The notes beneath the pieces were generated by a model, which saw only the letters and a program-made list of their open reading frames with translations, was not told where the DNA came from and searched no databases. A stretch of DNA of 64,000 nucleotides from Paraglaciecola polaris LMG 21857 (GTDB lineage: Bacteria > Pseudomonadota > Gammaproteobacteria > Enterobacterales > Alteromonadaceae), in the NCBI RefSeq assembly GCF_000315055.1, contig NZ_BAER01000023.1, positions 62,001 through 126,000 on the forward strand. The letters are read 5' to 3'. Below, in pieces: positions 12,094-63,836 of the stretch (position 1 is the first letter of the stretch; every line of letters starts with the position of its first letter). The position numbers and the translations under genes were made by a program.

Positions 12094-12840
12094 TTATATT
12101 TTCGTTATCCATTGTCGCACATCCTCAAGGGATTGATGAGCGGTCATATCCACTGACAAAGGGGTAACTGAGCAATACCCTTCACTAATTGCATGAAAAT
12201 CGGTCCCTGGACCTGCATCTTGCTCGTCACCTACGGTGCCATACCAATAAATTGTTTTCCCTCTTGGGTCTACATCCTTGATCATGGTTTTAGCTCTGTG
12301 CCGCCGGCCTTGGCGAGTCACTTTTATCCCTTTGATTTCGTCGTAGGGCAAATCAGGAATGTTGACGTTTAAAATCTGATCGGCTGGCAATGGATGGGCC
12401 TGTAAGTGCTCTACAATGCGCCGCACAAACTTAGCCGCGCTGATAAAGTTATCACTGGTGTGCGCACATAGCGATACCGCAATGGCGGGTAATCCCATGT
12501 ATCTACCTTCAGTTGCTGCCGCCACTGTGCCTGAGTAAATAACATCGTCTCCCAGATTTGCACCGTGATTAATTCCTGATATGACCAATTCAGGATCTTG
12601 CTGCAAAAAACTGTTTACCCCCACATGCACACAATCAGAAGGAGTGCCGTTGACCGCATAAAACCCACTTTGCATACGCTCCATGCGTAAAGGATGTTGT
12701 AACGATAGCGCGTTGCTCGCCCCGCTACAGTTACGATCAGGTGCGATAACGGTTAACTCGTGTTCCTCATTTAGCTCTCGGTATAATTCAGCTAAACCTT
12801 GGGCAAACACTCCATCATCATTGCTGAGGAGAATTCTCAT
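12094..12840 (-). CDS. surE: 5'/3'-nucleotidase SurE
   Basis: Metal-dependent nucleotidase/exopolyphosphatase of stationary-phase survival. The 248-residue sequence begins MRILLSNDDGVFAQGL with the paired metal-binding Asp, and has SGINHGANLGDDVIYSGTVAAATEG and the substrate loop region GTPSDCVHVG. Its start overlaps the end of truD by 4 nt, indicating translational coupling. Confidence 0.97.
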   Translation of the reverse strand: MRILLSNDDGVFAQGLAELYRELNEEHELTVIAPDRNCSGASNALSLQHPLRMERMQSGFYAVNGTPSDCVHVGVNSFLQQDPELVISGINHGANLGDDVIYSGTVAAATEGRYMGLPAIAVSLCAHTSDNFISAAKFVRRIVEHLQAHPLPADQILNVNIPDLPYDEIKGIKVTRQGRRHRAKTMIKDVDPRGKTIYWYGTVGDEQDAGPGTDFHAISEGYCSVTPLSVDMTAHQSLEDVRQWITKI

Positions 12841-13889
12841 TCTGAGGGACCTATTTCTGCTGTTTCTACGTTCAATATCTCACGTAATACAGAAGTAGCA
12901 AAGGTACCTGCGGGCAGATCAAAGGCAATACGTAAATGGTCTTGCTCCCTCGACCAACTTAGATTTTCAGGATACAAAACGATAGGACGTCGTTCTTGCT
13001 CTAAGCCCAAAGAAATCAAAGTTTCCGTGACTTTAGGGTGTTTTGCAGCAACGCGCGTTTCAAATGCCAAGGTCGCACCCGTCGAAGGCAATTCACCTTT
13101 GCCCCATAGGGGTGCTGACAGCGTTATGTCACGCTCTGTTAAACGTTTTCTGATGTCGTCATCTATGGCTTCGCTAACGAAATAGCTGGCGTTACCGGCT
13201 AGTGACATTACATCACCGCTGATGGGAGTGGCGAAATGACCTGCTTGGATACGTTCACTGAGTATTTCGTTGAATAACCATGAGCGCAGCGCAGATATCG
13301 CCATCGAACGCTTGTTGCGGTTGCGTATCGCTTCTCCGTTAATCATTTTTTCAGCGAGTACTAAGTTACTGCCCTTGGGATCGTAGCGGCTATCACCAAA
13401 TCGCTGGGGACCATAATAGTTTGGCGCGCCATTTTTACATACCTGTTCGATACGTCCGGCCAAGCCGTCTGGGGACGTGATATTGCGCAGTAAAATTGTA
13501 AATTTATTCCCTTTCAATGCCCCTGTGCGCAGTTTTTTATTATGCCGGATAGCTTTAACGACCTTGGCGCCGGGTACATTCAAGGCTGACCAGTCGTATT
13601 CGGCTTTGCCTGGTTTATGTACACCAAACCATTGTTCACTGACCGAATGTTTGTCTTTACGACCGGCATATGTGACTGCGCGTAACGGCAGTTGAGCAAA
13701 TTTGGCAATTTGTTCCGCTAAATAAGCAGTGTTGAGTCCCTCTTTTCGCACCCAAAGGTAAATATGCTCACCTTCACCTTGGGGATCGTAGCCGAGTATT
13801 TCTTGCACAACAAAATCGTCAGCTTGTTGTTTAAATATGCCACAGGTAGCAGGTTTGGGATGCAGGTAAAACCAATTGTCAATTTGCAT
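12837..13889 (-). CDS. truD: tRNA pseudouridine(13) synthase TruD
   Basis: Isomerises U13 of tRNA to pseudouridine. The catalytic Asp motif is present as TYAGRKDKHSVSEQWFGV, with the N-terminal FKQQADDFVVQEIL and the TRUD-insertion region NYYGPQRFG typical of the family. Length (350) is normal. It overlaps surE by 4 nt and is separated from ispF by 2 nt, so it is part of one operon. Confidence 0.97.
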   Translation of the reverse strand: MQIDNWFYLHPKPATCGIFKQQADDFVVQEILGYDPQGEGEHIYLWVRKEGLNTAYLAEQIAKFAQLPLRAVTYAGRKDKHSVSEQWFGVHKPGKAEYDWSALNVPGAKVVKAIRHNKKLRTGALKGNKFTILLRNITSPDGLAGRIEQVCKNGAPNYYGPQRFGDSRYDPKGSNLVLAEKMINGEAIRNRNKRSMAISALRSWLFNEILSERIQAGHFATPISGDVMSLAGNASYFVSEAIDDDIRKRLTERDITLSAPLWGKGELPSTGATLAFETRVAAKHPKVTETLISLGLEQERRPIVLYPENLSWSREQDHLRIAFDLPAGTFATSVLREILNVETAEIGPSE

Positions 13890-49397: not shown

Positions 49398-50399
49398 GTG
49401 CAGCTTGGTGTATCCACTGCGACTGTGTCCAATGCATTCAATCGTCCGGATCAGTTGTCAGCTAAATTGCGTGAACGTATTTTGCGTGAATCAGCAGAAC
49501 TGGGCTATCACGGGCCGAACTTTGCTGCACGTTCGTTGCGTAAAGGCGAGTCAGGGGTCATAGCTGTGGTGCTTGCTGATTCAATCAGTTATAGCTTGTC
49601 AGATCCGGTTGCCAGTCAGTTTTTACAAGGTGTGGCAGAGGTATTGGTTAACGAGAACAAGCAATTACTCTTGTTATCCAGTGAGTCTAATCAGCAGGCC
49701 CAAAGTAGTTCTGAATCGTTACCCGATGGGTTTGTCTTTTATGGGGCGCCCACAGGGGATATTTTTGAACGGGTGCAACGCAGTGGAAAACCACTAATAG
49801 CCGTGGACTTTGAAACCCACGATAGCGCATCAGTAAATATCAACAACGAGGATGGCGCTTATACAGTAGCAAACCACGGGTTAGTCTCTAAGCCGGACAG
49901 CGTGGCGATTTTAGGTTTGCGTTTGGTGGACTCTAACCGTATTTGTCGATTAACCGCTGCAGATATCGATCTTGAGTCAAAAGAAATATCGCGCAGTCGT
50001 TTAAAAGGCTACGTGCGAGCGTTAACCGATAACCAAGTTGTGTTTTCCCCTAGTCAGATTTGGCATATTCCCCTTAATACCCCTGATATGGCTGAAATAG
50101 CTGCTCGAGAAGCCCTTACGTTAAGCCCATTGCCTAAATTGGTGTTGTGTATGAGTGACGTTATCGCATTGGCGGTTATTCGGGTGGCCGGGGAGTTGAA
50201 CATTGATATTCCAAAGGACTTACAAGTCACCGGGTTTGATGACATACCTGAAGCACAGAGAAGTGTCCCGGGCCTTACCACCGTGTGCCAGCAAAGTTTG
50301 GAAAAAGGCCGAGTCGCCGCAGGATTATTATTTAGTCATGACGCTAAGCAGGAAGTCTTGTTAGATACACGTTTAGTGGTACGTCAAAGCTGTGCGTAA
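49398..50399 (+). CDS. LacI-family regulator, probable sucrose repressor (ScrR-like)
   Basis: LacI-type repressor of about 333-344 residues. The HTH reads QLGVSTATVSNAFNRPDQLSAKLRERI, followed by the hinge FAARSLRKGESGVIAVVL and a periplasmic-binding-protein-like sensor ending VTGFDDIPEAQRSVPGLTTV. The frame extends upstream as KKLNLKQVSVQL, the first helix of the HTH, but without an ATG, GTG or TTG before a stop. The first canonical start (GTG 49398) would drop that helix, so a rare ATC start near 49365 is possible. It is convergent with amylosucrase. It is inferred to control the sucrose genes via the operators at 52580-52626. Confidence 0.85.
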   Translation: MQLGVSTATVSNAFNRPDQLSAKLRERILRESAELGYHGPNFAARSLRKGESGVIAVVLADSISYSLSDPVASQFLQGVAEVLVNENKQLLLLSSESNQQAQSSSESLPDGFVFYGAPTGDIFERVQRSGKPLIAVDFETHDSASVNINNEDGAYTVANHGLVSKPDSVAILGLRLVDSNRICRLTAADIDLESKEISRSRLKGYVRALTDNQVVFSPSQIWHIPLNTPDMAEIAAREALTLSPLPKLVLCMSDVIALAVIRVAGELNIDIPKDLQVTGFDDIPEAQRSVPGLTTVCQQSLEKGRVAAGLLFSHDAKQEVLLDTRLVVRQSCA

Positions 50400-50418
50400 C
50401 TAAACATTGATAACCGTC

Positions 50419-50441
50419 GCCAGCGTGAAATTTTTGCTGGC
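50419..50441. terminator. Weak hairpin between convergent regulator and amylosucrase genes
   Basis: GCCAGC, an 11 nt loop, GCTGGC in the 102 bp between convergent genes. There is no following T run, so its role as a terminator is doubtful. Confidence 0.3.
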
Positions 50442-50501
50442 AGACTGTTATTGTGGGTTCGTTGATGAACTAGCGTATTTTACGCTTGGGCGTTAGTCGT
50501 G

Positions 50502-52433
50502 TTAATCCAGCTGCGTTAACCACATCACTTGATAGGGCTGTAAATTAATAGAGTTTGCTGCTGACGTTTTAACAAAATCAGTCAAAAGATCATGCCAAAC
50601 TTGACCATTATCTAGCCCTAGGTAAGTGCTGCTAATAACTTGCCGGTGTTCACTGAAACTGCATATGGCAATTAACTTTTTGCCCTCATCTGTATAACGC
50701 TCGAAAGCGAAAATAGCTGGATTATCACTGTTCAAAATACGCGTACCGGCTTGCCCAAATAGACTGTGCTGTTTACGAATAGCAATGCGTTGCTGTAAAC
50801 CTGTCGTCACTTGGTGTTGCGGAGTATTGAGGGTGTTACTTTGCGCAATCACCGCGTCTGTTACTGGAATACGGTGTACCCAACGGCCGTCGTGTTTTTT
50901 GCTGTCATCTTGCTCATAGCTATAATCGTTCAAAAGGGCTAATTCATCCCCAGAGTACAATAGCGGTATACCGCCAATACTTAAAATGATGCTATGCACC
51001 ATTAAAATACGAGCAATCGCATGATTAATTAAGGTGTCATTGTCGGTATTGATGCCCTGTTCTAGCCCAGCCAGAGAGGCAAGGGAACCGCATACTCGGC
51101 AGTCCCCGTTACTGGGATTCTCCGCAAAAGCCACGCCTGTCGCAAATGAGCCTTCAAAGCGACCAGTATAAAATTGGTTTAAAAACTGCCTGTGATCCTG
51201 TCCCTTAACTCCCAAGTTCTGCGCGACCGCGTCATCGAACGTCCAGCCAATATCGTCATGACAACGCACATAGTTAACCCAAGCGCAGTCGGGTGATATG
51301 GCAAAGCTTTTGTGCATCGATTCCGTGAGTAAATGCGTATTGCGCGTCGCCAGTGTGTTCCAAATCAAGGCCATTAATAGTGGGTTGTACGATAACTGGC
51401 ATTCGTCTTTGTCGATGTACTTAAGTACTTCATCTGGGTGCACAATGGCTTCTGATTTGAATACCACCGCAGGAGCCGCAATTTGCAAACAACAATTGAA
51501 TGCTTGAATAAGTTTGTGGGCTTTATCTTGGTTCTCACAATTGGTGCCCATTTCTTTCCAGATAAACGCTAATGCATCGAGGCGAAGTGCTTCACATCCA
51601 AGATTTGCTAAATAGAGCATTTCGTCGGTGATGGCGTTAAATACCGCTGGGTTAGTGTAATTTAAATCCCACTGAAAATTATTAAATGTAGTCCATACCC
51701 ACTTGCTTGAGTCATCATCCCAGCTGAAATTTCCGCGTCTTATCTGCGGGAAAATCTCGCGTAAATGTTGCTCGTACTGATCCGGAATATGTTTGTCGTC
51801 AAACATATAATAGTATTCGCTGTAATCTATATCCCCTGCTTTCGCAGCGAGCGCCCAAGGATGTTCATCTGAGGTGTGATTGAATACAAAGTCCAGCACT
51901 AAACTAATGCCCGCTTCAGCAAGGGTATTTGCAAGTGATTCAAGATCTTTGTTGTTGCCTAACGTAGTATTGACTTGGCGATAATTTGATACGGCATAAC
52001 CACCGTCACTGTCACCTTTGGGTGAGTCGTATAGTGGCATGAGGTGTAAATAGGTCACACCCGTTTCGACTAGATAGGGGATCTTGTCTTTAAGCCCTTT
52101 GAGATCACCGGCAAATAAATCCACGTAACATGCCATGCCCAACATATTTTCGTGCTGATACCAGTGAGGATCATTCAAGCGAGCCTGATCTTTATCTTTA
52201 AGCTTGCGTGAACGTTTTGTGTGAGCATCGGCTAGGGTTTGTATAACCGACTGTAAATAAAAGAAAAAGTCATAACGGTGGCCGTAAATTTCAAACAATA
52301 AGACAAACAGCTGAGGAAATTTTTCATGTAAACGGCGAATGAATAACTTTTGGTCACGTTTGGCCATTTTCGACAGATCAAGGCTATGTAAAATACGCTC
52401 TAAGGAGCGTTTGCTTTCAAGTTCTAAGTTCAT
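50502..52433 (-). CDS. Amylosucrase (GH13 subfamily 4)
   Basis: Converts sucrose into an alpha-1,4-glucan, releasing fructose. About 643 residues, like Neisseria polysaccharea amylosucrase (about 636). Conserved stretches include CYVDLFAGDLKGLKDKIPYL, YLHLMPLYDSPKGDSDGGYAV, the nucleophile Asp in LRLDALAFIWKEMGTNCEN, the acid/base Glu in VFKSEAIVHPDEV, the third Asp in VRCHDDIGWTF and the C-terminal LQPYQVMWL. ATG 52433 is chosen; a GTG at 52496 is open but adds residues without a clear family match. A sucrose hydrolase of the same subfamily cannot be excluded. Confidence 0.9.
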   Translation of the reverse strand: MNLELESKRSLERILHSLDLSKMAKRDQKLFIRRLHEKFPQLFVLLFEIYGHRYDFFFYLQSVIQTLADAHTKRSRKLKDKDQARLNDPHWYQHENMLGMACYVDLFAGDLKGLKDKIPYLVETGVTYLHLMPLYDSPKGDSDGGYAVSNYRQVNTTLGNNKDLESLANTLAEAGISLVLDFVFNHTSDEHPWALAAKAGDIDYSEYYYMFDDKHIPDQYEQHLREIFPQIRRGNFSWDDDSSKWVWTTFNNFQWDLNYTNPAVFNAITDEMLYLANLGCEALRLDALAFIWKEMGTNCENQDKAHKLIQAFNCCLQIAAPAVVFKSEAIVHPDEVLKYIDKDECQLSYNPLLMALIWNTLATRNTHLLTESMHKSFAISPDCAWVNYVRCHDDIGWTFDDAVAQNLGVKGQDHRQFLNQFYTGRFEGSFATGVAFAENPSNGDCRVCGSLASLAGLEQGINTDNDTLINHAIARILMVHSIILSIGGIPLLYSGDELALLNDYSYEQDDSKKHDGRWVHRIPVTDAVIAQSNTLNTPQHQVTTGLQQRIAIRKQHSLFGQAGTRILNSDNPAIFAFERYTDEGKKLIAICSFSEHRQVISSTYLGLDNGQVWHDLLTDFVKTSAANSINLQPYQVMWLTQLD

Positions 52434-52579
52434 GGTTATCAAATCATCTAATTCGTTTAAGTTAAAAACTATTGTAGGGACCAATAGTACTTCCACTTCT
52501 ATTTGTAAATAGATTCGGCTTTTATTTTTACAAGGTATTTACAATAAGGTTTTTATTTGTTAATTTCAATTTACATTAT

Positions 52580-52593
52580 CTTAATCGATTAAG
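52580..52593. promoter_or_regulatory. Operator-like palindrome 1 in the sucrose locus
   Basis: CTTAATCGATTAAG is a perfect 14 bp palindrome with a central CG, the form bound by LacI-family repressors. It lies in the 263 bp between the amylosucrase and permease starts. Binding by the adjacent LacI-family regulator is inferred. Confidence 0.6.
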
Positions 52594-52612
52594 TTTCTTT
52601 TGGCTAATCTCT

Positions 52613-52626
52613 TTGAACCGGTTAAA
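52613..52626. promoter_or_regulatory. Operator-like palindrome 2 in the sucrose locus
   Basis: TTGAACCGGTTAAA is a near-palindrome with one mismatched pair and a central CG. Its centre is 33 bp, about three helical turns, from the centre of the first site. That would let two repressor dimers bind one face of the DNA. Confidence 0.6.
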
Positions 52627-52696
52627 CGAACAACTAAATCATGCGGTCGATATAAGAGCCCGTTGAGCATAAGCCACTTTTTACAAGGCATAAGCA

Positions 52697-53968
52697 ATGA
52701 AAAATGTTCCAGACACAAGTAATGCAACACTAATCCGCTGGCTTACCTATTTGATGTTTATGATGTTTGCTATGACCTCGGACTCTGTGGGCGAGATCAT
52801 AAAAGAAGTCAAACGTGAATTTGATGTGAGCAATACTGAAGCCAGCTTGATGCATTCATTATTTATGATAGGCATTGCTTTTTCAGGGCTATTTTTAGGA
52901 TTTTTAGCCGATAGGTTTGGTCGCAAAAAGACCATTATTTTGGGTTTAGCCTTGTTTGCACTGTCATGTTACTTATTCCTAGTGGGTAACAGTTTCGAGT
53001 TTATCTTAGGCTTGATCACTCTCTCGGGTTTAGCGGTTGGCGTGTTTAAAACGGCAGCATTGGCGCTTATTGGCGATATATCTCGTTCAACCAAAGAACA
53101 TACTGGCACCATGAATGGCGCTGAAGCTTTTTTTGGCGTAGGGGCGATCATTGGCCCGCTGATCGTGGCTTGGATGGTGCGAGAGGGGGTTGATTGGAAG
53201 CTATTATACGTTCTTGCTGGTGGCCTATGTACCTTATTGATCCTCATGGCTTGGAAGGCGGATTATCCAGCGCACGCGCCAGTTAACAAAAACCATAAAC
53301 CGGTTAATTTCATGAGTAGTTTGAAATTGCTCAAAAACCCCTATGCCATGGGATTTTCAATCGGGGCATTTTTGTACGTGGCTGCCGAAAGTGCGATTTA
53401 TGTATGGATGCCAAGTTACCTGGTCTGTGACGCGGTTTCTGTGAGCGAGTCATTTGCCTGTTACACCACTGGCCCTGAAAAAATGCTTGCTATGTATGCG
53501 GTATCGGTTTTCTTTTCATTACGTGCCGTGGGCAGGTTTGTCGGTATTTGGATGATGCAGCGCTACAACTGGGCATTAGTATTAATGCTTTTCAGCTTAG
53601 CCATAACCCTGTGTTTCATCGGTGGCTTAATCGGCGGGAAAGACGTTGCGTTATATCTTTTCCCACTGACGGGTGTGTTTATGTCGGTCATTTATCCTAC
53701 CTTTAATTCGAAAGGTATATGCTGCTTCGCTAAAAGTGAGCATGGCACTGTCGCCGGTGTTATTTTATTTTTTACTGCCGCGGGTGCAGCAGCAGGACCC
53801 TTCATCATGGGGATAGTCAGTGACGCCTATGGTGGAGACGCCAAATACGGCTTTATCGTGGCAACGGGTTTTGCCTGCGTCTTATTCATCGGCTTATTAC
53901 TTAATTATATTTTTAATCCAACTGAGGCCCATCTGGCCTCGGTGGAAAAAACAGAATACGGCGGGTAG
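52697..53968 (+). CDS. MFS transporter, probable sucrose permease
   Basis: A 423-residue twelve-helix MFS protein. The A-motif loop is GFLADRFGRKKTIILG, and the chain ends with a charged cytoplasmic tail. It is divergent from amylosucrase across the operator region and upstream of the TonB-dependent receptor, so sucrose (or a related saccharide) is the inferred substrate. AAGG precedes the ATG. The extracytoplasmic loop near residues 235-260 carries three Cys (LVCDAVSVSESFACYTT region), which is unusual and may form a disulfide. Confidence 0.85.
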   Translation: MKNVPDTSNATLIRWLTYLMFMMFAMTSDSVGEIIKEVKREFDVSNTEASLMHSLFMIGIAFSGLFLGFLADRFGRKKTIILGLALFALSCYLFLVGNSFEFILGLITLSGLAVGVFKTAALALIGDISRSTKEHTGTMNGAEAFFGVGAIIGPLIVAWMVREGVDWKLLYVLAGGLCTLLILMAWKADYPAHAPVNKNHKPVNFMSSLKLLKNPYAMGFSIGAFLYVAAESAIYVWMPSYLVCDAVSVSESFACYTTGPEKMLAMYAVSVFFSLRAVGRFVGIWMMQRYNWALVLMLFSLAITLCFIGGLIGGKDVALYLFPLTGVFMSVIYPTFNSKGICCFAKSEHGTVAGVILFFTAAGAAAGPFIMGIVSDAYGGDAKYGFIVATGFACVLFIGLLLNYIFNPTEAHLASVEKTEYGG

Positions 53969-54149
53969 TCGTAATGTGTTTAATAGCGTGAAAATAGGAC
54001 TCTAGGTGTGGCGGCTTTTATCCGTCAAAAACGCATTTAACGTGAATTTTGAGCAACCGAGTTTAGGTCAGCTTAGTACAGTGATACAGCGACTTTTCAA
54101 TCAATGTTGGGAAATAGTGCGTTGTAGAACATAACAATGAGGAACACAC

Positions 54150-57053
54150 ATGAAGAACACACAATTTTTTAAACCAGCTTTGTTGTCAATCGCCGTATCA
54201 ACGGCTATGTACTCGCATCACTCACTTGCCCAAGAAATAGCACAGGCGGAAGATGTTGAAGTTATTTCGGTGTCAGGTATTCGTGGTTCGCTTATCCGTG
54301 CTCAAGCGGTAAAAATGGAGAATACGTCTATTGTTGAAGCGATATCTGCGGAAGACATAGGTAAATTACCCGATTCTTCTATCGCGGAGTCTTTGGCGCG
54401 CTTGCCAGGCATGTCGGGTGAACGAGTGGGTGGACGTACGTCGGGTATCTCAGTACGCGGTTTCAAAGAAGATTTCACAGGCACCTCGTTAAATGGTCGT
54501 GAACTCATCGGCATCGGTGATAACCGTGGCGTTGAATACGACTTGTACCCATCAGAAATTATGACCGGTGCAACTATCTATAAAACCTCTGACGCCGCGC
54601 TTATGGTGCAAGGCATTGGTGGCACAGTTGATTTGCAAACTGTACGACCTTTACAAGCACAAGAAACATTAACCGTTAATGGCAACTATGAGCTGAGTGG
54701 TCGCGATTCAGACAATCCCGAGTTTGATAACAAGGGGCATCGTTTGTCTTTGTCGTTCGTCGAAAAATTCGCGGATGATACGATTGGCTTAGCCGTAGCG
54801 TTGGCGAGTACTGAGTCACCAAATAACCAGCGTAAGTACGGGGTGTGGGGTTACAATACCAACGATGATGGGCAAATCACCCCATCAGGGTTAGACACCC
54901 AAGCGATCAGCACAGTGTTAGAGCGTGACACTATTTCCGCCGTATTGCAGTTTCAACCCACTGAGAACTTAGATATTGTCATTGATGCCTTAGACATCAG
55001 CTATTCTGACTCAGGTGTTATACGCGGTTTTATTGAACCCTTCAGTGCCGAAGACGTGACCGGAACGGGTATTAATACCACAGGCACACAAGTCGGCGTG
55101 AATCCAGTTTTGAGAACCGACCCGTCGAAAAAAGACGGCGACTTACAAGTGTTCGGCTTAAATGTTGAGTATCACTTGAATGACAATTGGTCAGTTGAAG
55201 TTGACGTGGCTAACAGTGAATCCACTAAGCGTGACTTACGTGGTGAATCTTATGCGGGACTGGCACGAAATGGTGCGCTTGATTCATCAGGTTTTGGTAC
55301 ACGGAATTTTGAGATGAGCCAAGACGGGATTTTATTTACTGACTCAACAGGATTAGACGCCTTTGCTGATCCAGCAGCCCTACAATTGGCTGGCCCACAA
55401 GAGTGGGGTGGTGGTTTAGCGAATTTGGCTGATCAATTTACCAGTACTGAATTAACCGCCAATGGCTCGCCTTACAGTTATCTCAATGCGCAGGATGGAT
55501 TCTTAAACTACGCGGATTTTAGCGAAGAGCTCACCACCTATAAATTTGAAGTCGTTGGCTTACTCGACGGTGATGTCTTTACCAAAGTGACGGCGGGTGT
55601 GAACTACAGCGACCGATATAAAGACAAAGAGAACAAAGGCTTCTTTGCTACCTCTTCATCCTATCCATCTTCTAGCGTTATACCGCAAGAATACTTATAT
55701 AACGGCTTAGCCGATTTAACGTGGGCGGGCTTGGGGTATGTCGTGGCTTATGACGGTTTTGCACCTTATAACGACGGTGAATACACCCTTAATGACGCAG
55801 GCTTACTTGAGCCTGACCGTTTAGGGGATACCTATGTGGTAGAAGAAGAAGTCACCACGTTATACGCAAAAGTAGACTTTAATACTGAACTAGGTGACTT
55901 CCCTGTGATGGGTAATATTGGTTTGCAATACGTGCAAACGGACCAATCTTCATCTGGTTATACAGGTGTGGTTGGCGCTAACTTCGCCGTATGTGACGCC
56001 GATAACGACCAGCAAATAGATGCTGACTGTAAAGTGTCGGTCAGTACAGATTATAGCCATGTGTTACCTAGCTTAAACGTGAGTGTGGAAGTGGCGGACA
56101 ATAAATTTGTGCGCTTTGCGGCCAATAAAACGATTAGTCGTGCGCGAATCGATCAAATGAAAGCGTCTGGCTTCGTGAAGTTTGACCAAAATATCGACCA
56201 AATTGCGATCCCTAATACCCAAGCAGCGGTAGATGAATACGGCTCACCTTGGTCTAAGTTTGCTGGTAACCCGTTACTGAAACCACTGGAAGCCAATAAC
56301 TTTGATTTGTCTTTCGAGAACTACTTTGAAGATGAAGGTTATGTCTCAGCCGCTATCTTTTATAAAGATTTGGTTAATTGGACGCGGGATGGTGACCTAG
56401 GCATTAATTTCCGTAATGATGTTACCAATGGTGGCGCAGATTATTTCATCCCTGGATTTCATGACCGTATTGCGTCTGAAGATGGCCTGTATGGTCCAGC
56501 GAACACCCCTTATTCAGCGGGTGATGTGATAACGCCGCCAGACTTCGGAAGTTACTCTTTCTTTGAAGATGGCTTAACCGGTGAAGTAAAAGGCTTGGAG
56601 TTAACGGCAAACGTACCTTTGAATATGTTAGCAGATGCCCTAGAAGGCTTTGGTATAGCAGCATCGGCTACCTTAATTGATGCTGAGTTAGAAGATGGTA
56701 CTGCCATTCCCGGGCAATCGGATCGCACCTATTCCGTCACGGCCTATTACGCCATGGGCGGTTTTGAAGTACGTTTAGCGGGGACTGACCGTTCTGAATT
56801 CAGCACCTATCAGCGTGGTGGTTCAAACAAGATTGAAACATCTACCCGTAATGCTGTGACCTTACTAGATGCGCAAATCAGTTACGACTTTGAGGATTCT
56901 GATATCCATTATTTGCAAGGATTACGCGTGTCATTACAAGGCACCAATTTGACTGATGTGGATGAAGAAACGGTTGACGACAATGGTATTGTGACCACGC
57001 GCCGCCAGTTCGGTCCGTCTTATATGGTTAACTTTAACTATGCTTTCTATTAA
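54150..57053 (+). CDS. TonB-dependent outer membrane receptor, probable sucrose uptake
   Basis: A 967-residue receptor. A signal peptide ends near SLAQ (28). The TonB-box region is DVEVISVSGIRGS, and the plug follows (EAISAEDIGKLPDSSIAESLARLPGMSGERVGGRTSGISVRG). A 22-strand-type barrel then ends in the aromatic MVNFNYAFY. It is of the Caulobacter/Xanthomonas carbohydrate-receptor type. GAGGA lies before the ATG. Its location downstream of the permease in the amylosucrase locus makes sucrose or sucrose-containing sugars the inferred ligand. A terminator follows directly. Confidence 0.9.
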   Translation: MKNTQFFKPALLSIAVSTAMYSHHSLAQEIAQAEDVEVISVSGIRGSLIRAQAVKMENTSIVEAISAEDIGKLPDSSIAESLARLPGMSGERVGGRTSGISVRGFKEDFTGTSLNGRELIGIGDNRGVEYDLYPSEIMTGATIYKTSDAALMVQGIGGTVDLQTVRPLQAQETLTVNGNYELSGRDSDNPEFDNKGHRLSLSFVEKFADDTIGLAVALASTESPNNQRKYGVWGYNTNDDGQITPSGLDTQAISTVLERDTISAVLQFQPTENLDIVIDALDISYSDSGVIRGFIEPFSAEDVTGTGINTTGTQVGVNPVLRTDPSKKDGDLQVFGLNVEYHLNDNWSVEVDVANSESTKRDLRGESYAGLARNGALDSSGFGTRNFEMSQDGILFTDSTGLDAFADPAALQLAGPQEWGGGLANLADQFTSTELTANGSPYSYLNAQDGFLNYADFSEELTTYKFEVVGLLDGDVFTKVTAGVNYSDRYKDKENKGFFATSSSYPSSSVIPQEYLYNGLADLTWAGLGYVVAYDGFAPYNDGEYTLNDAGLLEPDRLGDTYVVEEEVTTLYAKVDFNTELGDFPVMGNIGLQYVQTDQSSSGYTGVVGANFAVCDADNDQQIDADCKVSVSTDYSHVLPSLNVSVEVADNKFVRFAANKTISRARIDQMKASGFVKFDQNIDQIAIPNTQAAVDEYGSPWSKFAGNPLLKPLEANNFDLSFENYFEDEGYVSAAIFYKDLVNWTRDGDLGINFRNDVTNGGADYFIPGFHDRIASEDGLYGPANTPYSAGDVITPPDFGSYSFFEDGLTGEVKGLELTANVPLNMLADALEGFGIAASATLIDAELEDGTAIPGQSDRTYSVTAYYAMGGFEVRLAGTDRSEFSTYQRGGSNKIETSTRNAVTLLDAQISYDFEDSDIHYLQGLRVSLQGTNLTDVDEETVDDNGIVTTRRQFGPSYMVNFNYAFY

Positions 57054-58004: not shown

Positions 58005-59231
58005 TTACATCACCGAGAGTGATTTCAGCACTAAACGTACGCCTAGACCCACGGACACTAAAAATACTAATGCCCCCAAACCATTGGCTAGCATTCCATT
58101 GGTGTGTTTGCCTAGCAATGCCTTGTTATTCATGGTGTAAAGTAAGAATGCAGCGATGATGGGCAGTAATAAGCCATTGGCGAACTGAGCGCCGATAATG
58201 ATATTAATCGGTTTTGCTCCGCTGAGTGCAAATACCACCCCAACAATCAACACACTTAAGCTCACACTGCGAAAAATGAGCTCGCGTATTTTCGCTTTCG
58301 GGTTAATGATTTCTGTGATGGCGTATGCCGTTGCCAGTGGTGCAGTGAGTGAACTGCTTAATCCGGCGGCAAGTAGACCCGCGCCCAATAAATACTTGGA
58401 AAAGGAACCGAAAAGGGGCTCCAGTTGAATGGCCATGTCGGCCGCACTACTGGCACCTAACCCTCTGGAAAATAAACTAGCTGCGGCCGTGGACACAATG
58501 AACATAGCTACCAATCCACCTAGACCAATAGAGATAACCGAGTCGGCTCGGGCAGCAGGTAAATCAGCTTCACCTTGCCAGCGTGCTTTCGCGGCTGAGG
58601 CGTGTAAAAACAGATTATAAGGCACCACGGTCGTGCCGATTAAAGCCACCACTGTGATCAGGCTGTCATCGGGTAAGGTTGGCGTAAACAAGCCATGGGC
58701 AAATGCCGAGAGATCGGGTTGGCTGACAACAAATGTACCGATAAACGCCACGCCCATAAATAGCACCAATACCATTAATAAGCGCTCAACCTGACGGTAG
58801 CTACCGCGCCATAACGCCAAACCTGCTACGGTCGCGATACTCAATATCGTCCATGTAAAAGACGCATCACTAGGGCCGCTTAATATTGCACTGACGCCCA
58901 GTGCAGCACCGGACAAGTTACCTGCTTCATAGGCTGCGTTACCGCCATACAAAGCGAGGGCAATTAAACCAAATAGCGGCCATCGCCATATGGAGTGTTG
59001 CAGGCTTTCGCGCAATGCTTCTCCTAAGCCTTTTTGCGCTATGGTGCCTAAGCGGCCTGACATTTCTTGAAAAATAATGGTGGCTATGGTGGCAAACAAT
59101 AACGCCCACAGTAGTACGTAGCCAAAATTAGCTCCGGCCAACGTACAAACTGTCACTGTACCTGGGCCAATAAACGCTGCGGCGACAAGCGCGCCCGGGC
59201 CAACGTTTTTAATGAAATTCAGTGAGGGCAT
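58005..59231 (-). CDS. NRAMP-family transporter lacking the canonical metal-binding residues
   Basis: A 408-residue protein with about eleven membrane helices in the NRAMP (LeuT-fold) family. The TM1 motif DPGN, which holds two metal ligands, reads GPGT (residues 22-25). In TM6 the canonical Met-Pro-His reads V203-P204-Y205 (TTVVPYNLFLH). Ligand Asp, Asn and Met are thus all replaced, so divalent-metal transport is doubtful. A related protein, YcsG, lies in the 5-oxoprolinase operon of B. subtilis, and this gene is divergent from a 5-oxoprolinase. I infer an organic substrate such as 5-oxoproline. The ATG has AGGA upstream. Confidence 0.88.
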   Translation of the reverse strand: MPSLNFIKNVGPGALVAAAFIGPGTVTVCTLAGANFGYVLLWALLFATIATIIFQEMSGRLGTIAQKGLGEALRESLQHSIWRWPLFGLIALALYGGNAAYEAGNLSGAALGVSAILSGPSDASFTWTILSIATVAGLALWRGSYRQVERLLMVLVLFMGVAFIGTFVVSQPDLSAFAHGLFTPTLPDDSLITVVALIGTTVVPYNLFLHASAAKARWQGEADLPAARADSVISIGLGGLVAMFIVSTAAASLFSRGLGASSAADMAIQLEPLFGSFSKYLLGAGLLAAGLSSSLTAPLATAYAITEIINPKAKIRELIFRSVSLSVLIVGVVFALSGAKPINIIIGAQFANGLLLPIIAAFLLYTMNNKALLGKHTNGMLANGLGALVFLVSVGLGVRLVLKSLSVM

Positions 59232-59434
59232 TATTCTTCATTCCTATGTGCACGCTTGAGCGTATCTAATGTCGTTAGGCAATATCAGTTAAGCATATTT
59301 GCTCACGTTGATGATGCGCCAACTTAGCAACATAAAAAACGCATATCAACATTATATTTATAAAATGTTGATAAATTGTCATTGTATGGTTAGATTGATC
59401 CCAGATAAAGCATTCAATCTGGGGATGAAGACAC

Positions 59435-62400
59435 ATGAGCAGCACAGCAAACAAATCGAGTAAGCCTATTCAAAATCCGAGTCAGGCGATCAGCAATGCC
59501 GATAGCCCCTGTTGGGATTTCTGGGTCGACCGCGGAGGAACATTTACGGATATCGTGGCCAAAGATCCGCAAAATCGTTTGCTGACCAAAAAGTTGCTCT
59601 CTGAAAACCCCACCGCATACGAAGACGCTGCGCTGCAAGGGATCCGCGATTTTCTTGGTATCGATGGTGATGCCCCTATCCCAACCCATTTAATTGGCAG
59701 TGTTAAAATGGGTACCACGGTTGCGACAAATGCCTTGCTTGAACGCAAAGGGGAGCCGACCGTGTTGGCGATCACCCAAGGGTTACGGGATGTGCTGGAA
59801 ATTGGCTATCAAGTACGCCCCAAAACCTTTGCCCTAAATATTGAAAAGCCCGAGTTGTTGTATCAAGACGTGATTGAAGTGACTGAGCGGTTTGATAATG
59901 ACGGTAACGTGCTTGTGCCGTTAGACGAGCAAGCAGTGCGACGCAATCTTCAGCAGCAATATGTTGCTGGGTATCGCAGTGTGGCTATAGTACTCATGCA
60001 TGCTTACAAATACCCAGAGCATGAATTACGTGTTGCCCACATTGCTAAAGAAATTGGCTTTAGCCAAATCAGCACCAGCCATGATGTCAGCCCTATGGTG
60101 CGTATTGTACCCAGAGGTGATACCACAGTCGTTGATGCGTATTTATCGCCTATTTTACGCCGTTATGTGCAGCGGGTGGGCGCCGCTATCGGGGCAAACA
60201 CGGATGACCAGCCTCAACAAGAAGGGCAGCAAAGCAGCAACAAACGCTTGCAGTTTATGCGCTCATCTGGAGGCTTGACGGCCGCCAGTAAATTCCAAGG
60301 GCGGGATGCGATATTGTCTGGGCCAGCAGGTGGCATTATTGGCGCGGTACGCACCAGTGAATTAGCAGGTTTTAATAAAATCATCGGCTTTGATATGGGC
60401 GGTACGTCTACCGACGTTTCCCATTACGCCGGTGACTATGAGCGTGCATTTGAAACCCAAGTCGCTGGCGTGCGCATGAGTGTACCTATGATGAGTGTGC
60501 ATACAGTGGCCGCCGGGGGCGGCTCAGTGTTACATTTTGACGAACAGCGTTTTCGGGTTGGGCCTGAGTCAGCTGGGGCATTTCCTGGGCCCATGTCTTA
60601 TCGAAATGGCGGGCCGTTAACCGTCACTGATGCCAATGTATGTTTAGGCAAAGTCGATCCACGTTTTTTCCCAAAATTATTTGGTCCAGAGCACAAGCAA
60701 GCCATTGACGATAAAGTGGTTAAAAGCGCCTTTAATGCCATCGCGCAAAAACAGGGAATGGATGCCAGCGGCGAGCAAGTGGCCGAAGGTTTTTTAACCA
60801 TTGCCATTGAGCATATGGCGCAAGCGATTAAGAAAATATCCATTGAGCGCGGTTACGATGTACAACAATATGCCTTGACCTGTTTTGGTGGTGCGGGCGG
60901 GCAGCACGCCTGTTTAGTGGCTGATCGTTTGGGTATGCAGACTATTTTCATTCATCCTTTCGCCAGCATCTTATCTGCTTATGGTATGGGACTGGCTGAT
61001 GTTCGTAGCCAGCGAACTGAGACGTTCCAGCATGTAATGGATGCCAGCAGTTTGGCTGATTTGCATCAGGCATTTTCCCGCCTGAAAGCCCATACCGGTA
61101 ATGAGCTTACGGAGCAAGGTATAACCAGCGACGCGCAAACCCATAGCGCAACCGTGTTTTTACGTTACCAAGGAACTGATACGACCTTGCCTATTGTGCA
61201 AGGCTCGATAACACAGATGCAAGCCGAGTTTGAGAGCGTACATTTGGCCCAGTATGGCTTTATTTCCCCAGATAAAGAGATCATTATTGAATCGATCTCC
61301 ATGGAATCTGCTGGTGGCGGGCAACATATTGACGAGCCAGTTTATCCCCTTATCGATAGTGGTTTACCCCAGGCCCAAGAAAAAACTCAAATCTTCTCTG
61401 CTGGGCAGTGGCATAACACCCCCATTTATCAATTGAATCAGTTGCTTCCTGGTCATAAAGTGCAAGGCCCAGCCATTATCATAGAAGACAATGGTACTGT
61501 CATAGTCGAGCCTAACTGGACTGCGAATATGACTGCGCACAAGCATTTAGTTTTACACAAAGCGCAAACGGCCAGTGCGGCAAAAACGTCAAATAATGAT
61601 ATTTCAGCCACGGACAAAAAACAGCAGAATAAGCCAGAACAGGGGCAAAGCGATCCGGTGTTGGTCGAGATTTTCAATAATCAATTTATGTCTATTGCTG
61701 AGCAAATGGGCATAGTGCTGCGTAACACCTCGTCCTCGGTGAACATCAAAGAGCGGTTAGACTTTTCCTGTGCAGTGTTCGACCTAAGCGGGCGCTTAAT
61801 TGCCAATGCGCCACATATTCCAGTGCATTTAGGCTCAATGGACGCCACAGTCAAAGTGTTGATAAAAAGTGGTTTAAGCATAGAGGCCGGGGATGTCTTT
61901 ATTCACAATGATCCCTTCAATGGTGGTTCACATTTACCCGATGTGACGGTAATTACGCCGATATTCGACCAGCATAATGAACAGGTTATATTCTATGTAG
62001 CCAGTCGAGCGCATCACGCAGACATTGGTGGTATCGCACCGGGCTCAATGTCACCCAAAGCGAAAACCATTATCGAAGAAGGGGTGATTATTCCGTGTAT
62101 GAAACTCGTCTCAAAAGGACAGTTTTTGCAGGATGAATTAGAAACCTTGATGCTTGGGGCAAAATACCCAGTACGAAATTTCGCGCAAAATGTCGCTGAC
62201 CTGCATGCACAAATTGGCGCAAATCGCCGCGGGTACCAAGAGCTACTTAAACTCATCAATGAATACACTCTGCCTGTAGTGAACACCTATACCCAGCACA
62301 TTATGGATAACGCCGAAGAAAGCGTGCGTCGCACGATAGACTCGTTGGAAGGCGGCCAGTACAGCTATGAAATGGATGGCGGCTTGCGCATCTGCGTTAA

Positions 62401-63187
62401 GGTTGATGTTGACAGAACCACCCGCAGTGCAAGTATCGATTTCACCGGAACCAGCGCACAACAACCGAGTAACTTCAACGCGCCAGCGGCCATCACCCAA
62501 GCGGTGGTGCTGTATGTATTTCGTTGTTTGGTGGATAGTGATATTCCACTTAACGCAGGCTGTATGCGCCCACTGACGATCACTGTGCCACAGGGCTCTA
62601 TGCTCAACCCTGTTTATCCCGCTGCCGTCGTGGCGGGTAACGTTGAGGTTAGCCAAGCGGCGACCAATGCGTTATTTGGTGCGATGGGTACCTTAGGCAT
62701 GAGTCAAGGGACCATGAACAACCTAACTTTTGGTAATGACGAGTATCAGTACTACGAAACGATATGCTCTGGCGCGCCGGCTGGACCTGGCTTTCACGGT
62801 GCAGCAGCGGTACATACCCATATGACGAATTCACGTTTAACGGATCCTGAGATACTTGAGTCACGTTATCCGGTTTTACTCGATAAATTTGTGGTACGCC
62901 GTGACTCAGGAGGCAAAGGACAATGGCATGCCGGGGACGGTATAGAAAGGCGTATTCGCTTCTTAGCCAATATGCAGTGCGCGATTTTGTCTGGCCATCG
63001 TGAAGTACCGCTCGCTGGTGTGAAAGGTGGCCAAGCAGGGGAGCTTGGGCACAATTGGATTGAGCGCGACGGCCAAAAATGGTGCGACCTTGGTGGTAGC
63101 AACGAGAGCGAAGTACAATCTGGCGATGTTGTGGTTATTCAAACCCCCACTGGCGGCGGATTTGGCCGAATCAGCGAAGATCAATAA
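59435..63187 (+). CDS. Fused hydantoinase A/B, 5-oxoprolinase (ATP-hydrolysing) type
   Basis: A 1250-residue fusion. The HyuA-like half (to about 700) has FWVDRGGTFTDIVAKDP, KMGTTVATNALLERKGEP, GFDMGGTSTDVSHY and SVHTVAAGGGSVLHFDEQ, an actin/hexokinase-type ATP site. The HyuB-like half (from about 742) has NTSSSVNIKERLDFSCAVFD, HIPVHLGSM, NDPFNGGSHLPDVTV and a C-terminal GGGFG. A Ser/Lys/Gln-rich linker joins them (about 705-742). This fused form matches eukaryotic-like OPLAH, converting 5-oxoproline to glutamate with ATP, although hydantoinases share the fold. It is divergent from the NRAMP-like gene and followed by a regulator. Confidence 0.92.
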   Translation: MSSTANKSSKPIQNPSQAISNADSPCWDFWVDRGGTFTDIVAKDPQNRLLTKKLLSENPTAYEDAALQGIRDFLGIDGDAPIPTHLIGSVKMGTTVATNALLERKGEPTVLAITQGLRDVLEIGYQVRPKTFALNIEKPELLYQDVIEVTERFDNDGNVLVPLDEQAVRRNLQQQYVAGYRSVAIVLMHAYKYPEHELRVAHIAKEIGFSQISTSHDVSPMVRIVPRGDTTVVDAYLSPILRRYVQRVGAAIGANTDDQPQQEGQQSSNKRLQFMRSSGGLTAASKFQGRDAILSGPAGGIIGAVRTSELAGFNKIIGFDMGGTSTDVSHYAGDYERAFETQVAGVRMSVPMMSVHTVAAGGGSVLHFDEQRFRVGPESAGAFPGPMSYRNGGPLTVTDANVCLGKVDPRFFPKLFGPEHKQAIDDKVVKSAFNAIAQKQGMDASGEQVAEGFLTIAIEHMAQAIKKISIERGYDVQQYALTCFGGAGGQHACLVADRLGMQTIFIHPFASILSAYGMGLADVRSQRTETFQHVMDASSLADLHQAFSRLKAHTGNELTEQGITSDAQTHSATVFLRYQGTDTTLPIVQGSITQMQAEFESVHLAQYGFISPDKEIIIESISMESAGGGQHIDEPVYPLIDSGLPQAQEKTQIFSAGQWHNTPIYQLNQLLPGHKVQGPAIIIEDNGTVIVEPNWTANMTAHKHLVLHKAQTASAAKTSNNDISATDKKQQNKPEQGQSDPVLVEIFNNQFMSIAEQMGIVLRNTSSSVNIKERLDFSCAVFDLSGRLIANAPHIPVHLGSMDATVKVLIKSGLSIEAGDVFIHNDPFNGGSHLPDVTVITPIFDQHNEQVIFYVASRAHHADIGGIAPGSMSPKAKTIIEEGVIIPCMKLVSKGQFLQDELETLMLGAKYPVRNFAQNVADLHAQIGANRRGYQELLKLINEYTLPVVNTYTQHIMDNAEESVRRTIDSLEGGQYSYEMDGGLRICVKVDVDRTTRSASIDFTGTSAQQPSNFNAPAAITQAVVLYVFRCLVDSDIPLNAGCMRPLTITVPQGSMLNPVYPAAVVAGNVEVSQAATNALFGAMGTLGMSQGTMNNLTFGNDEYQYYETICSGAPAGPGFHGAAAVHTHMTNSRLTDPEILESRYPVLLDKFVVRRDSGGKGQWHAGDGIERRIRFLANMQCAILSGHREVPLAGVKGGQAGELGHNWIERDGQKWCDLGGSNESEVQSGDVVVIQTPTGGGFGRISEDQ

Positions 63188-63263
63188 TGTTTTTGGCAAC
63201 TTATAGTGGGCTAAAAACAAGCATACAACAAATATCGTAAATCCAGTAACAGAGAGTAATGCC

Positions 63264-63836
63264 GTGAGTAAAGAAAAAAAACAGGCTGAAGGCTTAACAC
63301 GCAATAACCCGCAAGGCGGAACTGTTCATGGGCACGGGCAAAAAATAGTGTCATCTGAGCACTTAGCCTCCCCTGAAAACTGGCCTTTGTCTGAAGTGGA
63401 ATATGGCATGACAATCGTCTACAACGCGTTTTCACAATGGATGGTGCGCTGCGCCACAGCGTCCGGTATTGGTGAGCTGGCGGTGTTAGATATTCTTATT
63501 CTGCACAACATTAATCACCGAGGCCGGGAAAAACGCCTGAATGATATTGCCTTCATGCTCAATATCATTGATACCCATACAGTCAACTACGCCATAAAAA
63601 AACTGCTTAAACTTGAATTAGTCGTCGGCAGCAAGCGCGGTAAAGAAATTTTTTACGCAACGTCAGATAAAGGTCGCGCAGCCTGCGAAGAGTACGGCCG
63701 AGTGCGTGAGCAGTGTTTGCTTGATGGTTTAAAATTGTTAGATGTAGACGCCGACCAGTTGGTGACGTTAGCGGCTACCCTACGTTCGATGTCTGGATTG
63801 TACGACCAAGCATCTCGCGCGGCTGCGTCTTTGTAA
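63264..63836 (+). CDS. COG5631-type winged-helix (MarR-like) regulator
   Basis: A 190-residue DNA-binding protein. The wHTH core includes GELAVLDILILHNINHRGREKRLNDIAFMLNIIDTHTVNYAIKKLLKLELVVGSKRGKEIFYATSDKGRAACEEY, similar to the predicted MarR-like family COG5631. The start is a GTG at 63264. It lies 76 nt after the oxoprolinase gene, so it is probably a pathway-specific regulator of that gene and the divergent NRAMP-like gene. This is inferred from position; members of this family often neighbour oxoprolinase/hydantoinase genes. Confidence 0.85.
   Translation: MSKEKKQAEGLTRNNPQGGTVHGHGQKIVSSEHLASPENWPLSEVEYGMTIVYNAFSQWMVRCATASGIGELAVLDILILHNINHRGREKRLNDIAFMLNIIDTHTVNYAIKKLLKLELVVGSKRGKEIFYATSDKGRAACEEYGRVREQCLLDGLKLLDVDADQLVTLAATLRSMSGLYDQASRAAASL

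Follow-up and report, generated by a model that had tools for sequence, protein, structure and literature searches.

C. glutamicum cannot grow on 5-oxoproline without the NRAMP-family gene pxpT, and deletion of ycsG is cited, from Niehaus 2017, as blocking 5-oxoproline use in B. subtilis (PMC13274462). A metal role is also reported for proteins of this kind: overexpression of ycsG raises cell Mn, the gene has been renamed mntG and the earlier ycsG result has been doubted for polarity (PMC10448178), while MumT of A. baumannii is described as a Mn importer, deletion of mumT having lowered cell Mn (PMC5050338). Here we describe a locus in a 64,000-nucleotide stretch of contig NZ_BAER01000023.1 of Paraglaciecola polaris LMG 21857 (the window), in which an NRAMP-fold carrier of 408 residues (58005..59231, minus strand, ATG start) diverges from a fused HyuA-HyuB protein of the ATP-dependent lactamase family (59435..63187, plus strand, 1,250 residues in one frame), a probable 5-oxoprolinase. 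The evidence makes it probable that this locus takes up and opens 5-oxo-L-proline and that the NRAMP-fold protein is the 5-oxoproline carrier. The initial annotation presented this as a substrate class not attributed to NRAMP proteins, which is contradicted by the published ties of PxpT and YcsG to 5-oxoproline. The carrier of the window represents a second, separate deep lineage, characterized by a GPGT motif, on which no paper was found and which appears undescribed; in the literature library used, a text search pairing Nramp with hydantoinase likewise found no paper.

The carrier fold and its central site

The carrier matches the Pfam family Nramp (PF01566, 7e-86) and adopts the LeuT-type NRAMP fold, with a confident AlphaFold model (mean predicted local distance difference test (pLDDT) 91.9, predicted template-modelling score (pTM) 0.91) in which the helices of transmembrane segments 1 and 6 (TM1 and TM6) are broken. 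Its best solved structural matches, identified with Foldseek, are EleNRMT (7qia, template-modelling score 0.89), followed by BfraNramp and DraNramp; by query length, the score against canonical NRAMP structures is 0.83 for 10ky and 0.86 for 8e5s. The TM1 break reads G22-P23-G24-T25 (59157..59168, minus strand), where canonical NRAMP has DPGN, and the TM6 break reads V203-P204-Y205 (58617..58625, minus strand), where canonical NRAMP has MPH. Although the fold and an equivalent of Q378 are shared with DraNramp and BfraNramp, a hand reading of the alignment to 8e6l places G22, T25 and V203 at the DraNramp metal ligands D56, N59 and M230 (ligand roles in PMC10185341), and Y205 at H232, the neighbour of ligand M230. 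The proton-pathway residues Glu134 (TM3) and His232 (TM6) are replaced by N105 and Y205. All pocket residues of the carrier were read from sequence alignments rather than from model coordinates. EleNRMT, a Mg carrier that is not H+-coupled (PMC8806188), keeps the TM1 Asp in the NRMT site DxxG-TxxA/T, whereas the carrier has G22, T25, T200 and V203.

Among 75 relatives from the window's taxonomic family (Alteromonadaceae), found independently of the motif, F[IV]GPG is present in 75/75, the next residue being T in 73 and S in 2; Tyr205 is likewise found in 75/75, and Asn206 is changed to Ser or Ala in 12/75. The 45 tree rows chosen by the TM1 motif contain T200, T201, N206 and Q349 in 45/45 and Y205 in 44/45; GPGT invariance among them was rejected as evidence, the rows having been picked by GPGT, and the free counts are those of the 75 relatives. 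The Pfam match, the confident model and these counts bear out the initial description of a retained NRAMP fold in which GPGT replaces DPGN and VPY replaces MPH. The accompanying statement that the protein had lost its metal site assumed a direction of change: in a published rooted tree, motif-less proteins branch paraphyletically outside the canonical metal transporters (PMC12873925). The site need not have been lost; it may never have existed in the carrier lineage.

A class search gave matches at E<=1e-30 in 6 of 274 genomes, the window's own included, with two good relatives. The wider survey, a pattern-based scan with a three-row alignment, was run on a collection of 84,980 species and covers only genomes that carry either of two peptide patterns. 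It yielded 63 loci: 38 GPGT (TM1 or TM6 motif), 20 GPGS and 5 others (L047, L069, L073, L074 and L075), the last being mostly fragments, none of them linked to oxoprolinase genes, of which L047 and L069 may be clade members. Some of the scan loci nearly duplicate one another (Saprospiraceae L022, L034, L036, L038 and L041; Paraglaciecola L013-L015), and the p-values given below therefore overstate independence. On a 95-row tree, a single clade of 46 rows (support 100/99; one row is cut short in TM1) unites the F[IV]GPGT[VIL] sequences, with members in Pseudomonadota, Bacteroidota, Balneolota, Bacillota, Actinomycetota and KSB1, and in Halobacteria on plasmid records. Outside it lie the DPGN rows, rows with NRMT-like motifs, the GPGS clade and a distant GPGF branch.

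PxpT and YcsG, we infer, belong to this GPGF or PxpT-type branch, to which MumT is assigned from the gene order of its operon in an A. baumannii record of known name. Proteins of the branch share with the carrier the PF01566 fold, the TM1 GPG (part of the branch definition) and the TM6 Tyr and Asn352 (15/15 each); Tyr205 and Asn352 are common to the carrier and this branch and are not found in GPGS rows. PxpA lies within the sequence retrieved in 11/11 PxpT-type loci opened. However, PxpT-type proteins of pxp operons are only 19-21% identical to the carrier, form a separate branch (support 100/100), have GPGF and GGY where the carrier has GPGT and VPY, and had no HyuA-HyuB neighbours in any locus opened; by sequence the carrier falls outside the branch. 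The deposited model 9a52, chain A of which was taken as B. subtilis YcsG from title, length and fold, is 21% identical to the carrier in Foldseek, and orthology of the carrier with YcsG was rejected on this value. The initial annotation had cited YcsG in support: an NRAMP-family protein tied to 5-oxoproline in print it is, but it is no close relative and is elsewhere called a Mn importer. A search for PxpT-type carriers in the class to which G279 belongs found them in 1 of 247 genomes, and a phmmer search with a PxpT-type protein against PDB sequences gave no match.

An A. baumannii locus (L149:5899-12100) matches the published mum order, with NRAMP, LamB_YcsF-like, D-glutamate-cyclase-like, fused carboxyltransferase-like and biotin-carboxylase-like genes, named by likeness of sequence starts and size. 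Judged by these likenesses it reads as a pxp operon, and the 'urea carboxylase' and Mn assignments deserve re-examination.

Gene neighbourhoods of the GPGT clade and the fused enzyme

Oxoprolinase-type genes lie within 6 kb of the carrier in 22 of the 38 GPGT loci of the species scan, 17 with Pxp genes and 5 with HyuA-HyuB. The Pxp genes are on the carrier's strand in 17/17 cases, with a gap of <300 bp in 16/17; PxpA, B and C are all present in 14, and PxpA only in the 3 that are ended by a contig end. Pfam confirmed LamB_YcsF, CT_C_D, CT_A_B, D-Glu_cyclase and Hydantoinase A/B domains in example loci. No such linkage is seen in two controls, namely the GPGS-type loci of the same scan (0/20, 10 of them with both flanks of at least 5 kb) and NRAMP paralogues in genomes that also hold a GPGT carrier (0/24). 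The paralogue set comprises 20 chosen regions and L004, some on short contigs; it leaves out some matches over the cut-off (e.g. G284:C268, G281:C237 and G746:C24), and the G746:C37 region was dropped because it contained a GPGT carrier.

The best matches among plasmid records are haloarchaeal (23 such records; six opened). Carrier, HyuA and HyuB follow one another in 5/6 of these loci, HyuA beginning at the base after the carrier stop codon, and a ribbon-helix-helix gene precedes the carrier in four of the five linked operons. Across 27 rows of the tree, at least three changes of enzyme partner are seen. PxpABC and HyuAB have no Pfam domain in common in the loci examined, so that the common factor is the substrate class; linkage of GPGT carriers across phyla to two non-homologous oxoprolinase enzymes makes 5-oxoproline or a close relative the most likely cargo.

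The fused enzyme of the window, divergent from the carrier as first annotated and separated from it by 203 bp, contains the Pfam domains Hydant_A_N, Hydantoinase_A, Hydant_A_C and Hydantoinase_B in one frame. Consistent with an ATP-dependent lactamase, it combines HyuA and HyuB domains with the DxGGTxTD motif and with the four metal ligands of CapB, the residues aligned with Asp41, His99, Asp102 and His124 being retained by hand count on the alignment. Met-Thr stands at the place aligned with the vicinal Cys410-Cys411 of caprolactamase CapAB; Lys40 of CapAB could not be located in the alignment as printed, and the comparison gave no substrate-deciding residues for the fused enzyme. Domain order, the DxGGTxTD phosphate site and the metal ligands are shared with the lactamases 7hk5 and CapAB (6yra). 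The best full-length PDB match is the fused N-methylhydantoinase 7hk5 (410 bits), which has DVGGTFTD whereas the fused enzyme has DRGGTFTD. The fused enzyme presumably also resembles animal OPLAH, another ATP-dependent lactamase.

Its distribution was followed in 147 genomes of the window's taxonomic family, a count held separate from that of the 38 scan loci (L013/G802 and L014/G889 are probably the same genomes twice). PxpA is present in 131/147 and Hydantoinase_B in 24/147, the long-frame form (at least 1,200 residues) in 12. This long-frame fused enzyme occurs in 12/16 PxpA-less versus 0/131 PxpA-bearing genomes (p=1e-14 by genome and 3.7e-6 by genus, with four genera; kinship ignored), and DRGGTFTD is found in 7/7 long-frame loci outside the window's genus. 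Within the genus, PxpA is absent from 6/6 genomes; carrier and fused enzyme are adjacent in five and, at the thresholds used, both missing from one. The fused enzyme takes the place of PxpABC in these genomes, and such mutual exclusion is expected of a replacement 5-oxoprolinase, which, judging by its sequence and distribution, it probably is.

Evidence bearing on the substrate

Several observations, given here with the readings that they favour, weigh against 5-oxoproline as the cargo. Mn import is reported for YcsG and MumT, both encoded in pxp operons, and the water-bridging Q378 of DraNramp is retained in the carrier as Q349. The carrier might instead import Mn(II) or another divalent metal, using main-chain carbonyls together with Q349 and further groups, and owe its place beside HyuB-type and related enzymes to their need for metal. 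Besides the rise in Mn on YcsG overexpression, a triple mntH mntA ycsG mutant was unobtainable without a second ycsG copy (PMC10448178); MumT, for which the deletion phenotype points the same way (PMC5050338), lies in the PxpT-type branch; EcoDMT given NRMT site residues with the Asp kept still moved Mn (PMC8806188); and CapB-type metal ligands are retained in the fused enzyme. Nevertheless, the TM1 Asp is kept in the canonical (DPGN), Al (DxxN-AxxT) and Mg (DxxG-TxxA/T) branches and is Gly in the carrier and in 75/75 of its family relatives, the linked loci share two non-homologous enzymes of one substrate class, and YcsG and PxpT-type proteins are only ~20% identical to the carrier. We regard metal supply as quite unlikely to be the carrier's role.

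The haloarchaeal loci raise a different doubt. An Asp/Glu racemase family gene (by annotation) follows HyuB in 3/5 linked operons, the best Pfam match of one such gene being arylmalonate decarboxylase, and the two haloarchaeal HyuA proteins checked contain DVGGTFTD where the fused enzyme contains DRGGTFTD. Given this motif and the racemase-family genes, the haloarchaeal substrate could be a hydantoin. Among the 16 unlinked scan genomes, PxpA or Hydantoinase_B occurs elsewhere in 11 and neither was found in 5 (L020, L027, L028, L043 and L049), one of which is only 1.1 Mb. One of these, Tissierella creatinophila (L043), a creatinine user judging by its name, has genes of the arginase, nitrilase and choloylglycine-hydrolase families near its GPGT carrier, which might serve a different amide substrate. 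The solute of the carrier might be a different cyclic amide or resemble an amino acid (hydantoin, N-methylhydantoin, a creatinine product or a pipecolate-like compound), with 5-oxoproline only one of its substrates or not among them, and the haloarchaeal HyuA type, the N-methylhydantoinase match of the fused enzyme and the Tissierella neighbourhood are consistent with such a cargo. It is unlikely all the same, as 17 of the 22 linked scan loci contain Pxp genes, a dedicated 5-oxoprolinase, and as the fused enzyme excludes PxpA in the window's family.

Within that family the carrier is present in 76/147 genomes. The 75 loci other than the window's were opened to about 8 kb on each side or to the contig end: 4, all of the same genus, adjoin the fused enzyme, 1 adjoins a PxpA fragment with an internal stop and 70 adjoin neither, leaving no intact oxoprolinase gene beside the carrier in 71/71 genomes outside the genus (71/76 overall). 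A glutamate-5-kinase-like gene, read from sequence, lies within two genes of the carrier in 9/75. Conversely, no carrier stands beside any of 8 PxpA loci opened in carrier genomes of the family, and in seven family genomes the fused enzyme occurs without any GPGT carrier at E<=1e-80. Within the family, co-occurrence at the level of genomes was rejected as evidence: an oxoprolinase of any type is found in 76/76 carrier genomes versus 67/71 carrier-less ones (p=0.05), PxpA in 71/71 carrier genomes outside the genus and also in 60/70 without the carrier, and the comparison says little because oxoprolinases are near-universal there.

The recurring link between NRAMP proteins and oxoprolinases put forward in the initial annotation holds across phyla, in the window and in 22/38 clade loci and with two non-homologous enzymes, but not through the window's family (5/76); the neighbour comparison proposed with it likewise separates GPGT loci from GPGS loci and paralogues but leaves most carrier loci of the family unlinked. 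Carrier and enzyme could be adjacent by history only, the carrier having an unrelated role in Alteromonadales, as the 71/71 family carriers away from an intact oxoprolinase gene would allow. This is very improbable given that compact operons with both genes on one strand link the two again in distant phyla, that the enzyme partner has changed at least three times, and that the genomes of the genus show joint presence in 5/6 and joint absence in 1/6.

Proposed mechanism and related NRAMP-fold lineages

Between the two divergent genes lies a perfect 10-bp inverted repeat with a 10-bp spacer (59344..59373), a candidate shared operator. It is the sole perfect copy in the genome, the nearest other having exactly 3 mismatches (contig C56), for a search pattern that was derived from the site itself. 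The palindrome also occurs between the same two genes in relatives L013-L015 and L219, and its exact form was not found in relative L218. Downstream of the fused enzyme, and adjoining it in genus relatives too, a 190-residue winged-helix protein (63264..63836, plus strand; PF13463 HTH_27), labelled COG5631-type in the initial annotation, is a candidate regulator.

Enoyl-CoA-hydratase-like and acyl-CoA-synthetase-like genes, read by eye, follow the winged-helix gene beyond the window (L005:5563-8068) and are kept in three relatives. On the other side of the locus, positions 49398-57053 hold in a row a LacI-type regulator, a GH13-like enzyme, an MFS carrier and a TonB-receptor-like gene, resembling a sugar-use locus; this row was read by eye, with MFS alone checked by Pfam.

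The observed fold, motif, clade, gene linkage, exclusion of PxpA and palindrome suggest the following model, in which substrate, binding mode, coupling ion and regulation are inferred. The protein would work as a secondary carrier whose solute is not a metal but the anion of 5-oxoproline or of a close relative, with a central site between the broken TM1 and TM6 that is devoid of the usual side-chain metal ligands. In APC amino-acid carriers, GxG breaks offer main-chain amides to the carboxylate. The GPGT break may present its main-chain amides in the same manner and, together with Tyr205 and neighbouring Asn/Thr side chains, would hold 5-oxoproline by its carboxylate and its ring amide. Using ATP, the fused HyuA-HyuB would then open the ring to give L-glutamate, in place of the PxpABC absent from the genus, and a regulator, plausibly the winged-helix protein, would act on the shared palindrome.

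Further NRAMP-related types came to light. The window genome encodes two more NRAMP-family proteins on contig C20 (L004:8091-9332 and 12276-13514), with GTGSVT in TM1, which lie among uronate/alginate-type genes (Pfam: UxuA, mannitol-dehydrogenase family and RbsD/FucU). The type recurs in relatives and in Saprospiraceae (L182-L185 and L187-L191), with a uxuA-like gene adjoining in several, and alginolytic systems of Alteromonas are reported to include a 'Nramp, metal-ion transporter' (PMC6431674). By their gene context GTGSVT-type proteins are candidate sugar-acid carriers. The GPGS-type clade (L048-L070) occurs in Bacteroidota and KSB1; its neighbours conserved in Flavobacteriaceae encode an unknown protein, a DHDPS-like protein, a GNAT protein, a GSDH-cytochrome c protein and a GH109-type oxidoreductase.

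A broader and more tentative possibility, to which we give less credence than to 5-oxoproline transport by the GPGT carrier, is that metal-site-less NRAMP folds are broad organic-acid carriers within which the metal site of MntH/NRAMP arose, the Mn import reported for YcsG and MumT being indirect. Separate lineages would then serve 5-oxoproline (the GPGT clade with PxpABC or HyuAB, and the GPGF branch with PxpABC) and, in the case of the GTGS type of alginate/uronate loci, probably uronates or related sugar acids, and the G-x-G break of TM1 could bind carboxylate as in APC amino-acid carriers.

Public records call proteins of the GPGT type 'Nramp family divalent metal transporter', and many of these labels would be wrong if the proteins are 5-oxoproline carriers. 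In that case the dispute over YcsG, Mn or 5-oxoproline, would gain for testing an independent lineage without metal ligands. The fused enzyme, if the assignment is true, would be a clear-cut example in which one 5-oxoprolinase has taken over from another.

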